From Glycomyces sp. YM15 (lineage in GTDB: Bacteria > Actinomycetota > Actinomycetes > Mycobacteriales > Micromonosporaceae), in the NCBI RefSeq assembly GCF_016918015.1, contig NZ_JAERMK010000007.1, forward strand, positions 147,839-211,838: 64,000 nucleotides of DNA. Direction: 5' to 3'. Under the pieces are notes generated by a model. It worked only from the letters and a program-made list of their open reading frames with translations, searched no databases and had not been told where the DNA came from. Positions 46,445-50,075 of this stretch are shown here, one piece after another. The first letter of the stretch is position 1; every line of letters begins with the position of its first letter. The position numbers and the translations under genes are program-made.

Positions 46445-47767
46445 ATGGCTGAAACCGCGAACCCGCCCCGCCCGCAAGACGAGGTCGTCGACATCGCGCG
46501 CGACCTCATCCGCATCGACACCACCAACACCGGCGACAACGCGACCGCCACGGGCGAACGCGCCGCCGCCGAGTACGTCGCGGAGAAGCTCGCCGAAGTC
46601 GGCCTCGAGCCGAAGATCTACGAATCGGCCCCCGGCCGCGCCTCGGTCGCCTGCCGCTACCCCGGCGCCGACGCCACCCGCGGTGCCCTGCTGCTCCACG
46701 GCCACCTCGACGTCGTCCCCGCGGAACCCGACGAGTGGACCGTCCACCCCTTCTCCGGCGAGATCAAGGACGGCTACCTCTTCGGCCGCGGTGCCGTCGA
46801 CATGAAGGACTTCGACGCGATGCTCCTCGCCCTCGTGCGCGACTGGAAGCGCCGCGGCAAGGTTCCCCCGCGCGACCTCGTCCTCCTCTTCACCGCCGAC
46901 GAAGAGGCCGGCTCCGACTACGGCGCCCGCTTCATGGTCGAACAGCACCCTGAAGTCTTCGAAGGCGTCACCGAAGCGGTCGGCGAAGTCGGCGGCTTCT
47001 CCGTGACCCTCCCGAACGACCTGCGCGTCTACGTGGTCCAGACCGCCGAGAAGGGCCTCGACTGGCTCCGCCTGCGCGCCACCGGCCGCCCCGGGCACGG
47101 CTCCATGCTCCACGACGACAACGCCGTCACCCGCCTCACCCGCGCCGTCGCCAACATCGGCCAGCACGAGTTCCCGGTCGAGATGACCCCCACGGTCCGC
47201 CAGTTCCTCGAATCCGTCTCGGAGCTGACGGGCATCGCATTCGACCCGGACAACCCCGACGAGACGGTCGCCAAACTGGGCCCGGTCGCCCGACTCATCG
47301 GCGCGACCCTCCGCAACACCGCCAACCCCACCCGCCTCAACGCGGGCTACAAGACGAACGTCATCCCCTCGACCGCCGACGCCGTCATCGACTGCCGCTC
47401 GCTCCCGGGCCGCAACGACGAACTCGAAGCCGTCCTCCGCGAACTCGCCGGCGACGGCATCGACTTCGAGTACGAGATCCGCCAACCCGGCTACGAGACC
47501 TCCTTCGACGGCGTCCTCGTCGACGCGATGGCCGAGGCGATCCGCCAAGCCGACCCCGGCGCCCGCACCGTCCCGTACATGCTCTCGGGAGGCACCGACG
47601 CGAAGGCCTTCGCGACCCTCGGCATCCGCTGCTTCGGCTTCGCGCCCCTCAAGCTGCCCGCCGACCTCGACTTCACCGCCCTGTTCCACGGCATCGACGA
47701 GCGCGTCCCGCTCGACGGCCTCAAGTTCGGCGTCGACGTCATGGACCGCTTCGTCAGCCGGTCCTAG
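46445..47767 (+). CDS. M20-family metallopeptidase
   Basis: 440 aa. Zinc-binding and catalytic residues are clear: HGHLDVVP (His, Asp), GRGAVDMKDF (bridging Asp), TADEEAGSDYG (catalytic Glu pair), and FHGIDERVPLDGLKFG near the end. The insertion RLRATGRPGHGSMLHDDNAV marks the dimerisation lid. Likely a dipeptidase or aminoacylase-type amidohydrolase, cytosolic; the substrate is not decidable. ATG 46445 lies just behind TAGAAC, so the leader is very short. Ends at the terminator 47781. Confidence 0.9.
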   Translation: MAETANPPRPQDEVVDIARDLIRIDTTNTGDNATATGERAAAEYVAEKLAEVGLEPKIYESAPGRASVACRYPGADATRGALLLHGHLDVVPAEPDEWTVHPFSGEIKDGYLFGRGAVDMKDFDAMLLALVRDWKRRGKVPPRDLVLLFTADEEAGSDYGARFMVEQHPEVFEGVTEAVGEVGGFSVTLPNDLRVYVVQTAEKGLDWLRLRATGRPGHGSMLHDDNAVTRLTRAVANIGQHEFPVEMTPTVRQFLESVSELTGIAFDPDNPDETVAKLGPVARLIGATLRNTANPTRLNAGYKTNVIPSTADAVIDCRSLPGRNDELEAVLRELAGDGIDFEYEIRQPGYETSFDGVLVDAMAEAIRQADPGARTVPYMLSGGTDAKAFATLGIRCFGFAPLKLPADLDFTALFHGIDERVPLDGLKFGVDVMDRFVSRS

Positions 47768-47780
47768 CCTCGAGAACCCA

Positions 47781-47824
47781 ACGGGCCCCGCACCAGTGAG
47801 CGCACTCACCGGCGCGGGGCCCGT
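47781..47824 (+). terminator. Terminator after the M20 peptidase
   Basis: Outer stem ACGGGCCCCGC/GCGGGGCCCGT (47781-47791, 47814-47824) with a second internal hairpin GTGAG-CGCA-CTCAC (47796-47809). Confidence 0.7.
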
Positions 47825-47831
47825 CGTTCTC

Positions 47832-47861
47832 TGGACACCGCTCAGCAACCGCGACTACAAT
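47832..47861 (+). promoter_or_regulatory. Promoter of the ABC-F gene
   Basis: TGGACA (47832-47837), an 18-bp spacer, TACAAT (47856-47861), a near-consensus -10 box. The predicted start (about 47868-47869) is at the edge of the leader peptide ATG at 47870, leaving ~158 nt of transcript before the ABC-F start codon. Confidence 0.6.
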
Positions 47862-47869
47862 CGGACGCG

Positions 47870-47890
47870 ATGTTGATTTTCTTCTTCTAG
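47870..47890 (+). CDS. Six-codon leader peptide MLIFFF
   Basis: ATG TTG ATT TTC TTC TTC TAG lies at the predicted 5' end of the ABC-F transcript. The run of Phe codons in so short an ORF, in a leader that can fold GGCACGC with GCGTGCC further on, resembles ribosome-stalling leaders that control ABC-F and other ribosome-targeting resistance genes. Expression itself is not shown. Confidence 0.55.
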   Translation: MLIFFF

Positions 47891-48027
47891 AAGCAGCCAG
47901 GTCACCGCGTAGAGCCACGCTCCGCGACGACCGTCCGGGCACGCATCGCAATCCTTGAAGCCGAGCGCTCATCCGCGTGCCGTCCAACCGCAATCCCGAC
48001 GCGTACGACTGCATTCTGGAGGCGCCC

Positions 48028-49659
48028 ATGTTCCCCCATGCTCAACTAGCCCTTGTAGACGTCACCAAGCGCTACGGTGACAACCTCGTCCTCGACCGCG
48101 TCACCTTCACCGTCAGACCGGGGGAGAAGCTCGGCGTCATCGGCGACAACGGCTCCGGCAAGTCCACCCTGCTCAGGATCATCGCCGAAGTCGAAACGCC
48201 CGACAACGGCGAGCTGACGATCGCCTCCCCGGGAGGCATCGGCTACCTGCCGCAGCAACTCGACCTTCCCGAGCACGACACGGTCGCCGACGCGATCGAC
48301 CTCGCACTCGCGGACCTGCGCGAAATCGAACAGGCCATGCGCGACACCGAAAAGACGCTCACCGACGGCGACCAAGCCGCCGCCGAGCACTACGCCGACC
48401 TCATGGCCCGCTTCGAAGCCCGCGAAGGCTGGGGCGCCGACCTCCGCGTCGATCAGGCCCTGGCGGCTCTCGGCCTGCCCGACCTCGACCACGACCGTCC
48501 CCTGGGGATGCTCTCAGGCGGCGAGCGATCAAGACTCATGCTCGCCGCCACCCTAACGGCCCGCCCCGCCCTCCTCCTGCTCGACGAACCCTCGAACGAC
48601 CTGGACGACGACGCCGTCACCTGGCTCGAAGCGCAACTGCGCGAATGGAAGGGCACCGTCGTCGCGGTCACCCACGACCGCGCTTTCCTGGAGGCCGTCA
48701 CCACCACCATGCTCGAAATCGGGGACCGCAAGGCCCGCCGCTACGGCAACGGATACAGCGGCTACCTCATCGCCAAAGCGACGGAACGCCAACAGGCCCA
48801 GGAGGCCTACGACCGCTGGAACGCCGAAGTCGCCCGCCAGGAAGGCATCGTCGACCACAACGCCGACCGCATGGCCGCGATCCCGAGAAAGCTCCCGATG
48901 GCCAACATGTCCACGGGGGCCTTCCGGGCCCGCAACCGCGATCACGGTGCGGGCAGCCGTATCCGGGTCGCGAAACAGCAGCTGGAACGGTTGAAGGCCA
49001 ACCCGGCCCCGCGGCCACCCGAGCCGCTGCGTTTCAGCCCCGACCTCGCCGTCACCGGCTTTACAGCCGACGCCCCGGCCTTGCGGCTGAACGGCATCCG
49101 AGTGGGCGACCGCCTCAACGTCGAGGCCCTCTCGATCGCAAGAGGCGAACGCATCCTCATCACCGGCCCGAACGGAGCGGGAAAGACCACCCTTATGCGC
49201 GTCCTCGCAGGAGAACTCGAACCCGAAGCAGGCCGGACCGAACGCAACGGAGCCATCGGCCACCTACGTCAACTCGCAGGCCCGGGATCGGCTCGGGAAT
49301 CGGTACTCCGGGCCTTCGCCGCGGGCGGGATCGGCACCCTGGAAGAGCACGCCGAAAACCTCGACCGCCTGGGTCTGTTCACCCACGATGAATTCGGAAA
49401 GCCGGTCGCGACCCTCTCGGTGGGCCAACGCCGCCGCCTCGAACTGGCCAGACTGGTGAGCCGCCCAGTCGATGTCCTCCTCCTTGACGAACCGACCAAC
49501 CATCTGTCCCCGCTGCTCGCAGAGCAACTCCAAGAAGCCCTGGTCGACTACAAGGGAGCGGTGGTCCTGGTAAGCCACGACCGCCGCCTCCGCGAGTCCT
49601 TCCAAGGCCGCCGCCTGCGAATGGAGGCAGGAGTCATCGAAACGATCATGGCCTCTTGA
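48028..49659 (+). CDS. ABC-F ribosome protection/translation factor
   Basis: 543 aa with two ATPase domains and no membrane segments. First Walker A GDNGSGKST, signature MLSGGERSRL, Walker B LLLLDEPSNDLD; second Walker A GPNGAGKTT, signature TLSVGQRRRLEL, Walker B LLLDEPTNHLS. The linker between them (about residues 230-320) is charged and helical, the region that reaches the drug site in antibiotic-resistance ABC-Fs. ATG 48028 follows GGAGG. The leader peptide and promoter upstream suggest induction by a ribosome inhibitor. Related to macrolide/lincosamide-type actinobacterial ABC-Fs; the drug is not known. Confidence 0.9.
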   Translation: MFPHAQLALVDVTKRYGDNLVLDRVTFTVRPGEKLGVIGDNGSGKSTLLRIIAEVETPDNGELTIASPGGIGYLPQQLDLPEHDTVADAIDLALADLREIEQAMRDTEKTLTDGDQAAAEHYADLMARFEAREGWGADLRVDQALAALGLPDLDHDRPLGMLSGGERSRLMLAATLTARPALLLLDEPSNDLDDDAVTWLEAQLREWKGTVVAVTHDRAFLEAVTTTMLEIGDRKARRYGNGYSGYLIAKATERQQAQEAYDRWNAEVARQEGIVDHNADRMAAIPRKLPMANMSTGAFRARNRDHGAGSRIRVAKQQLERLKANPAPRPPEPLRFSPDLAVTGFTADAPALRLNGIRVGDRLNVEALSIARGERILITGPNGAGKTTLMRVLAGELEPEAGRTERNGAIGHLRQLAGPGSARESVLRAFAAGGIGTLEEHAENLDRLGLFTHDEFGKPVATLSVGQRRRLELARLVSRPVDVLLLDEPTNHLSPLLAEQLQEALVDYKGAVVLVSHDRRLRESFQGRRLRMEAGVIETIMAS

Positions 49660-49910
49660 ACGACGACGTGGTGAGCCGCGTTTCCGCCGGCTCGTGGCAT
49701 TGCCGGGCCGGGTCCTCTGATGCCCGACCTGGCATTGCTGTTCGCGCTGGCGGTCTTACCGGTGTGTGCCTCGTTCTGGACACTGCCTCCGGTCGAGGTG
49801 ATCCCGACCGGCAATCTCCCACCCAGCACGTCCCAAGGAAGGGCCGTGGTCCGCTGTGGATCCCGATAGCACGCGGGGACTGAGCGCGATGCCCTTGTTC
49901 AGGAGCAGTT
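49660..49910. other. Gap with no gene seen between ABC-F and repeat copy 2
   Basis: Open frames here lack recognisable domains and good ribosome sites. No terminator for the ABC-F gene was obvious. Confidence 0.35.
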
Positions 49911-50075
49911 GGCTCGGAATCGGTCCGGTTTGGGTTTCGGCCAGAGGCTTGGCGTAGTCTGCTTGCACCTACTCGCCACCTGTACGTTTTCCGTATCCCT
50001 GTGCGTACCTCAATCATCCCTCGCGTGACCCCTGACTGTCATCACCCACAGGGATAGAGGGCCCTCAAATTTCGT
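49911..50075 (+). repeat. Dispersed ~160-bp repeat, copy 2
   Basis: Matches 22660-22818 over its whole length with scattered substitutions. Conserved: CGGCCAGAGGCTTG, CGTAGTCTGCTT, the CCTGTAC / CCTGTGC pair with starts 19 bases apart (49979, 49998), and CTGTCATCACCCACAGG. The downstream ATG of copy 1 is missing here, so this copy looks inactive. Confidence 0.75.

Follow-up and report, generated by a model that had tools for sequence, protein, structure and literature searches.

A conserved short uORF of leaderless type, with a predicted anti-Shine-Dalgarno tail, upstream of an ABC-F gene in Glycomyces

Introduction

An ABC-F gene of Glycomyces sp. YM15 is preceded by a six-codon upstream open reading frame (uORF), MLIFFF, and two features of its leader are new: the end of the uORF pairs with the Shine-Dalgarno (SD) sequence of the ABC-F gene through a helix that covaries, and the uORF stop codon is followed by a hairpin that is near-invariant in Glycomyces. 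Judged from sequence comparison, the leader is probably a leaderless ribosome-sensing attenuator that controls the ABC-F gene, with ribosome stalling and induction as presumed steps. The window, that is, the whole stretch of 64,000 nucleotides that was analyzed, carries the following features around this leader (positions of the window).

46445–47767, upstream of the ABC-F gene: peptidase M20 gene (Pfam)
47781–47824, between the M20 peptidase gene and the −35 element: imperfect palindrome of 44 nt (86% self-match)
47832–47837, + strand: −35 element TGGACA (promoter scan; conserved in Glycomyces)
47856–47861, + strand: −10 element TACAAT, after an 18-nt spacer and 8 nt before the uORF ATG
47870–47890, + strand: uORF MLIFFF of leaderless type, ATG TTG ATT TTC TTC TTC TAG (ORF and comparison)
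47884–47896, + strand: 5' strand of helix P1, anti-SD (minimum-energy fold; covariation; duplex energies with own and swapped SDs)
47900–47903 with 47929–47932, + strand: helix GGUC/GACC enclosing P2 (minimum-energy fold; two of four pairs changed on both sides)
47906–47926, + strand: bulged hairpin P2, CGCGUAGAGC-CAC-GCUCCGCG, after the uORF stop; nearly invariant in Glycomyces
47938–47944 with 47975–47981, + strand: helix P3, GGCACGC/GCGUGCC (minimum-energy fold; covariation)
48009–48022, + strand: 3' strand of helix P1; the ABC-F SD GGAGG lies within it at 48018–48022 (minimum-energy fold; covariation)
48028–49659, + strand: ABC-F ribosomal protection-like gene, 543 aa, nearest to the TlrC/CarA/OleB/SrmB type (NCBIfam profiles)

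In the proposed mechanism, RNA polymerase would start at or near the uORF ATG, and a ribosome would load on the 5' end of the transcript without an SD and make MLIFFF. When the drug is absent, this ribosome would terminate and leave, and the tail of the uORF would pair with the SD region. The ABC-F SD would then be hidden at the foot of a leader with several branches, P2 and P3 among them. If a drug occupied the peptidyl-transferase centre or the exit tunnel, the ribosome would stall on the hydrophobic and aromatic peptide, cover the anti-SD, and make the ABC-F start easier to open. The ABC-F protein would then relieve the ribosomes and damp its own signal. Translation of the uORF, stalling, this feedback, and an output at the level of translation rather than transcription are all presumed steps.

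Results

The ABC-F gene and its promoter

The best profile match of the ABC-F protein was NF000171 (TlrC/CarA/OleB/SrmB) at 731.9 bits, which is below the curated cut-off of 800, and the protein reached the cut-off of NF000355 (ribosomal protection-like ABC-F) with 399.6 bits against 380. Orthologues (E up to 1e-100) were present in 19 of the 21 other Glycomyces genomes searched; among the named matches, the best was that of G. lechevalierae, at 87%. One Glycomyces genome carries a second ABC-F copy (L046, G014:C27; 68% identical), at which neither the uORF nor the hairpin was detected. The 44-nt palindrome is perhaps the terminator of the M20 peptidase gene. An Rfam search of positions 47000–50000 gave nothing at the gathering score; the sole match, to a plastid 3'UTR family, was sub-threshold (27.1 vs 55.2 bits) and fell on this palindrome.

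The first-pass annotation had proposed a promoter that starts a transcript almost on the ATG of a tiny ORF ending in three Phe codons, about 140 nt before the ABC-F gene. The promoter sequence and the ORF were both confirmed: TGGACA-18-TACAAT, 8 nt ahead of the ATG, is the only promoter-like site found in 47400–48200 (shuffle mean 0.0), and the ORF reads MLIFFF, its stop lying 137 nt ahead of the ABC-F ATG (48028). From the spacing between the −10 element and the ATG, we infer that the transcript starts at the uORF ATG or a few bases from it. Among 318 window tiles (400 nt, both strands; positions 60–340 of each tested), the uORF site was the only one of its type. The 5.67-Mb genome contains two sites with the pattern TGGACA-N16-18-TANNNT-N6-9-ATG, one of which is the MLIFFF locus.

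Conservation of the uORF in Glycomyces and other actinobacteria

A counterpart of the promoter and uORF, with five or six codons, was found at 19 of 20 Glycomyces ABC-F loci. In all 19, a TANNNT −10 element lies 7–8 nt before the start; the −35 element is exactly TGGACA in 14, and the spacer between the two is 18 nt in 18. The peptides are MLIFFF, MLIFL, MLIYFL, MLIFFL, MLIFFS, MLIYFS, MMIFL, MLLYFL, MWLYLR, MWLYFI, and MWLYFR; the run of three Phe is not constant, and relatives carry F, Y, L, I, S, or R at those positions. The one orthologue without a uORF (L014, G019:C104) lacks the stretch between a −35-like TGGACA and the ABC-F SD, a gap that could be a true deletion or an assembly collapse in this 330-contig draft. 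A strong GC hairpin stands in place of the missing stretch, between the end of the M20 peptidase gene and the start of the ABC-F match.

The comparison covered 148 regions upstream of ABC-F genes: 20 from Glycomyces, 69 from relatives and order searches (one being the second Glycomyces copy), and 59 from a class search. The set omits the seven weakest matches of one search (G030 twice, G031, G051, G116, the third of G052, and the second of G075), and the class search scored three candidates per genome, so that its ABC-F list is to be read as "at least". The strict detector looked for TANNNT, 5–9 nt, ATG or GTG, and 3–9 codons after the start, located 60–340 nt upstream, with a peptide of which at least half is FYWLIMV and which holds one aromatic residue. 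It found uORFs in 60 of the 148 regions, which are mutually related and do not count as independent events: 19 of 20 in Glycomyces, 18 of 69 among relatives and the order, and 23 of 59 from the class search. The remaining 88, L014 among them, had none by this detector. Markov shuffles of the 148 regions averaged 0.15 loci, with at most 1, and the detector found nothing in the 148 reverse complements or in 536 tiles of 400 nt outside leaders. Peptides from beyond Glycomyces include MGIFFTL, MGFFFYM, MLYFL, VAIFFL, MRLYFFL, MRFFFFL, MGSYYFFL, and MGYLFL; the detector excludes uORFs that start 10 nt or further from the −10 element, such as MGTLLFFL in L026, L047, and L048, and these are absent from the 60. 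In four homologues without a detected uORF (L027, L029, L049, and L084), operator-like inverted repeats AGACG-N-CGTCT were seen upstream by eye, which suggests repressor control instead of attenuation.

The distance from the −10 element to the uORF start was tabulated for ORFs with at least two aromatic residues over spacings of 0–25 nt. It peaked at 7 nt (25 loci), with 8 loci at 6 nt, 9 at 8, 1 at 9, 5 at 10, a single one at 21, and none elsewhere in the range. An SD-like tetramer was suitably placed before 2 of the 60 uORFs, compared with 42 of the 60 downstream ABC-F genes. This spacing peak and the scarcity of SDs are as expected of leaderless translation. The uORF stop is UAG or UGA in 57 of the 60.

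Fold of the leader

In the minimum-energy fold of the window leader, the 5' strand of P1, which consists of the last base of codon 5, codon 6, the stop codon, and the six bases after it, pairs with CUGC-A-UUCUGGAGG in the SD region of the ABC-F gene. The whole leader fold is no more stable than its shuffles (z −0.50; 56 of 200 shuffles fold equally well), so the evidence for the fold is comparative. In the 19-sequence Glycomyces alignment, 94.2% of the cells in the four helices are paired, and changes on both sides of a pair were found in 8 pairs and 26 cells, compared with 3.6 and 7.9 in shuffles (reached in 1 and 0 of 500, respectively). When the partners were slid as a control, such changes appeared in no more than 2 pairs and 4 cells. 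The covarying helices are P1, GGUC/GACC, and P3, in which one pair is A-U in 9 and G-C in 8 of the 19 leaders. The pairing of GGCACGC with GCGTGCC, to which the first-pass annotation had drawn attention, is present in the minimum-energy fold as P3, but it looks like a scaffold, and P1, which joins the uORF tail to the SD, appears to be the pairing of most weight.

Hairpin P2 behaves differently from the covarying helices. All of its cells in the Glycomyces alignment are paired and six of its seven pairs never vary, which implies a constraint on the sequence and is not covariation support for the pairing. The pattern GUNGAGC-N-GCUCCG, which was written after viewing the sequences, occurs in 44 of 67 uORF-bearing leaders, namely the 60 from the detector and seven with long spacing added by hand. 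In six leaders (L113, L118, L120, L107, L109, and L176), the uORF is merely MGSL or MGTL and the full P2 hairpin is kept, which suggests that the hairpin counts as much as the peptide. An Rfam search of 10 loci gave no match at E up to 0.5.

The first-pass annotation had envisaged premature termination in the leader. No terminator-like site was found in 47400–48200, and an intrinsic terminator was dropped as a candidate. The string TTTT between the uORF stop and the SD occurs in none of the 19 Glycomyces leaders and in 5 of 21 others, and a conserved fold alternative to the uORF-SD helix was not seen across the folded leaders. Since P1 reaches the SD and no terminator-like site was found, translational attenuation is favored over premature termination. 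It is unlikely, although compatible with the preferred reading, that uORF stalling acts by preventing a premature terminator, either an intrinsic one without a U-tract or a Rho-dependent one, and that the SD pairing is secondary. Attenuation of this transcriptional kind has been reported for LmrC and MsrD, are5sc transcription is described as drug-induced (PMC8546547, PMC10314930, PMC12421871), and P3 would supply a GC-rich conserved hairpin. The covarying long-range helix, however, extends into the SD, which argues against it together with the terminator and TTTT results.

Pairing of the uORF tail with the SD

Pairing tests were performed on 47 loci; in the other 13 of the 60 no SD-like site was found near the match start, and their true start codon may be elsewhere. 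Across the 47 loci, the duplex of the uORF tail with its own SD had −18.9 kcal/mol vs −14.6 kcal/mol with swapped SDs, a difference reached in 0 of 10,000 permutations. The 28 non-Glycomyces loci gave −17.5 vs −15.3 kcal/mol (1 of 10,000), and the difference within Glycomyces was modest (−20.5 vs −19.0 kcal/mol; permutation p 0.003). Mono-shuffled tails often paired as well in L020, L021, and L022 (45, 11, and 46 of 300). The probability of uORF-SD pairing was at least 0.6 in 17 of the 19 Glycomyces leaders, the exceptions being L019 (0.22) and L022 (0.18), and in 17 of the 28 non-Glycomyces loci, with 11 below 0.6. It was zero in L111, L117, L121, L124, and L126, which are five of the eight MRL-type leaders, and in L139 and L143.

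Covering of the uORF by a ribosome was modeled by masking its bases. In the 19 Glycomyces leaders, the cost of opening the SD decreased from 8.70 to 6.32 kcal/mol with the uORF masked, compared with 8.54 kcal/mol for other masks of equal length; the values for 21 other leaders were 7.66 unmasked, 6.02 with the uORF masked, and 7.31 with other masks. The uORF mask outdid the best control mask in 13 of the 19 and 11 of the 21, and the decrease was at least 2 kcal/mol in 11 and 7, respectively. Under the uORF mask, the cost increased in L022, L052, L056, L086, and L121. For the window's own leader it went only from 7.2 to 5.6, and one control mask did better (4.9).

Equilibrium folding with the uORF masked raised the mean unpaired fraction of the SD from 0.05 to 0.12 in the 19 Glycomyces leaders, none of which gained 0.3, and from 0.09 to 0.16 in the 21 others, of which 2 gained 0.3. 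The SD stays mostly paired in these calculations, and full release of the SD upon stalling, which they do not support, was dropped. The partners of the SD in the masked state differ between species in the 11 leaders inspected.

Composition of the uORF peptides

To avoid circularity, the scan was repeated without the peptide criterion at spacings of 6–8 nt. This filter-free scan found a uORF in 71 of the 148 regions, compared with a shuffle mean of 0.875 (maximum 3). Its residues were L 25%, F 22%, Y 12% (11.6%), and I 10% (9.8%), compared with 7.8%, 1.8%, 0, and 2.3% in the shuffle uORFs. Trp was not enriched (1.0% vs 1.8%), and Pro (0.8% vs 10.5%) and Ser (5.4% vs 11%) were depleted.

These values bear on the possibility that the peptide is unread, so that any inhibitor holding the ribosome at the first codons would cover the anti-SD and the uORF tail would be pyrimidine-rich merely as an anti-SD; sequestration of the SD is common to this explanation and the preferred one. 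In its favor, masking bases 1–18, as for a ribosome at the AUG, left somewhat more of the SD unpaired than the whole-uORF mask (means 0.20 vs 0.12 in Glycomyces and 0.25 vs 0.16 in the other leaders). Lincosamide-type drugs are described as stalling ribosomes at the start codons of tiaAL and are5scL1 (PMC12421871). The residue bias, in contrast, points to a function for the peptide itself: the enriched residues include Tyr and Ile, which pyrimidine tracts do not encode, and the depleted ones are Pro and Ser, which such tracts would be expected to encode. Hydrophobic peptides also persist where tail-SD pairing is absent. An unread peptide is held to be improbable.

Specificity of the element

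A covariance model, R1, comprising the −10 element, uORF, and P2, was trained on 42 sequences. It gave one strong match in its own genome (E 1.6e-15), with the next at 0.018; a second leader copy in the genome was dropped from consideration, as none was seen. Searched against 393 class genomes, R1 gave 16 matches at E <5e-6, and every one precedes an ABC-F gene; 7 lie outside the training set. R1 also led to an ABC-F gene that had not previously been listed (G748, L176). The 11 weaker matches (E 3e-5 to 1e-3) were judged by position relative to the partial ABC-F list and by inspection of ORFs by eye; 3 precede an ABC-F gene and 8 do not. One weaker match is followed, about 200 nt downstream, by a DnaK-like ORF.

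The three consecutive Phe codons of the window uORF would suit amino-acid attenuation that senses charged tRNA-Phe. This is very improbable, given that relatives contain one Phe codon (MLIFL) or none (MWLYLR) and that the 16 strong R1 matches precede ABC-F genes, not genes of Phe metabolism; a phenylalanine attenuator was dropped, as the Phe count varies from none upward. There is next to no likelihood that the uORF is a chance ORF without function: it has six codons only and the window fold does not exceed the stability of shuffles, but conservation at 19 Glycomyces loci and in further genera, the shuffle and tile controls, covariation, and the residue bias all speak against it.

Discussion

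The first-pass annotation had read the locus as ribosome-mediated attenuation with a leaderless stall peptide. The uORF, the promoter spacing, and the helices are conserved and the helices covary, which supports the core of that proposal. Two parts change: the key pairing appears to be P1, with translational output favored, and the three Phe codons are not a constant feature. The inducer is most likely of macrolide type, by analogy, because of the ABC-F type and the LIF run that MLIFFF has in common with MsrDL.

Erythromycin is described as stalling the ribosome at the stop codon of the MsrDL leader peptide, MYLIFM, and sensing of the drug requires L3 and I4 (PMC10314930). Both leaders place a short hydrophobic peptide before an ABC-F gene and share the LIF run, but this run lies one position nearer the N-terminus in MLIFFF, and many relatives (MWLYFR, MRFFFFL) are without it. 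The same source describes a transcriptional output with an intrinsic terminator for msrDL and a prevalence of UAA stops, in contrast to the Glycomyces leader, in which no terminator-like site was found, and to the UAG or UGA stops of the actinobacterial uORFs. Unlike msrDL, 58 of the 60 actinobacterial uORFs are without an SD, and a conserved RNA fold pairs with the SD of the gene.

The lmrC, are5sc, and tiaA genes of Streptomyces are likewise actinobacterial ABC-F genes with short uORFs in their leaders and ribosome-mediated attenuation (PMC8546547, PMC12421871). They belong to another ABC-F subfamily, ARE5, and are described with a terminator/antiterminator arrangement and the peptides MLV and MVGDDDISG. 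The are5sc and tiaA uORFs possess ribosome binding sites (PMC12421871), unlike the Glycomyces uORF, and the word "leaderless" has no occurrence in the main texts of these two papers. Among the matches listed from the open-licence literature, no title concerned leaderless uORFs before ABC-F genes, and six uORF peptide strings had no match in open-licence papers.

The ermC leader ORF has its own SD. In ermC-type regulation, a ribosome that a drug has stalled on the leader ORF makes the SD of the resistance gene accessible (PMC10219788), as proposed here with another peptide and another RNA fold. Leaderless short ORFs also act as attenuators in mycobacteria, where cysteine-responsive poly-Cys uORFs have been described (PMC13236596, citing Canestrari 2020); these differ in preceding operons with cysteine genes and in responding to cysteine, not ribosome drugs.

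As a tentative extension that we would not yet favor, the element may represent a class of drug sensors that is widespread among actinobacteria and has no name so far. Its arrest peptides, leaderless and rich in Phe, Tyr, Leu, and Ile, would have codons that double as the anti-SD of the ABC-F gene, and a GUNGAGC/GCUCCG hairpin bordering the stalled ribosome would tune arrest or RNA-polymerase pausing.

The uORF4u tool includes an SD search step for prokaryotes (PMC10219788), which may be why such uORFs are absent from lists, and searches for uORFs based on SDs may overlook a class if the preferred reading is true. MLIFFF and its relatives would then be a second family of short hydrophobic arrest peptides beside MsrDL, and the leader would offer a compact natural system for the drug response of ribosomes on leaderless messages. 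Many actinobacterial ribosome-protection genes would be switched by leader peptides without an SD, translated from the first base of the mRNA.
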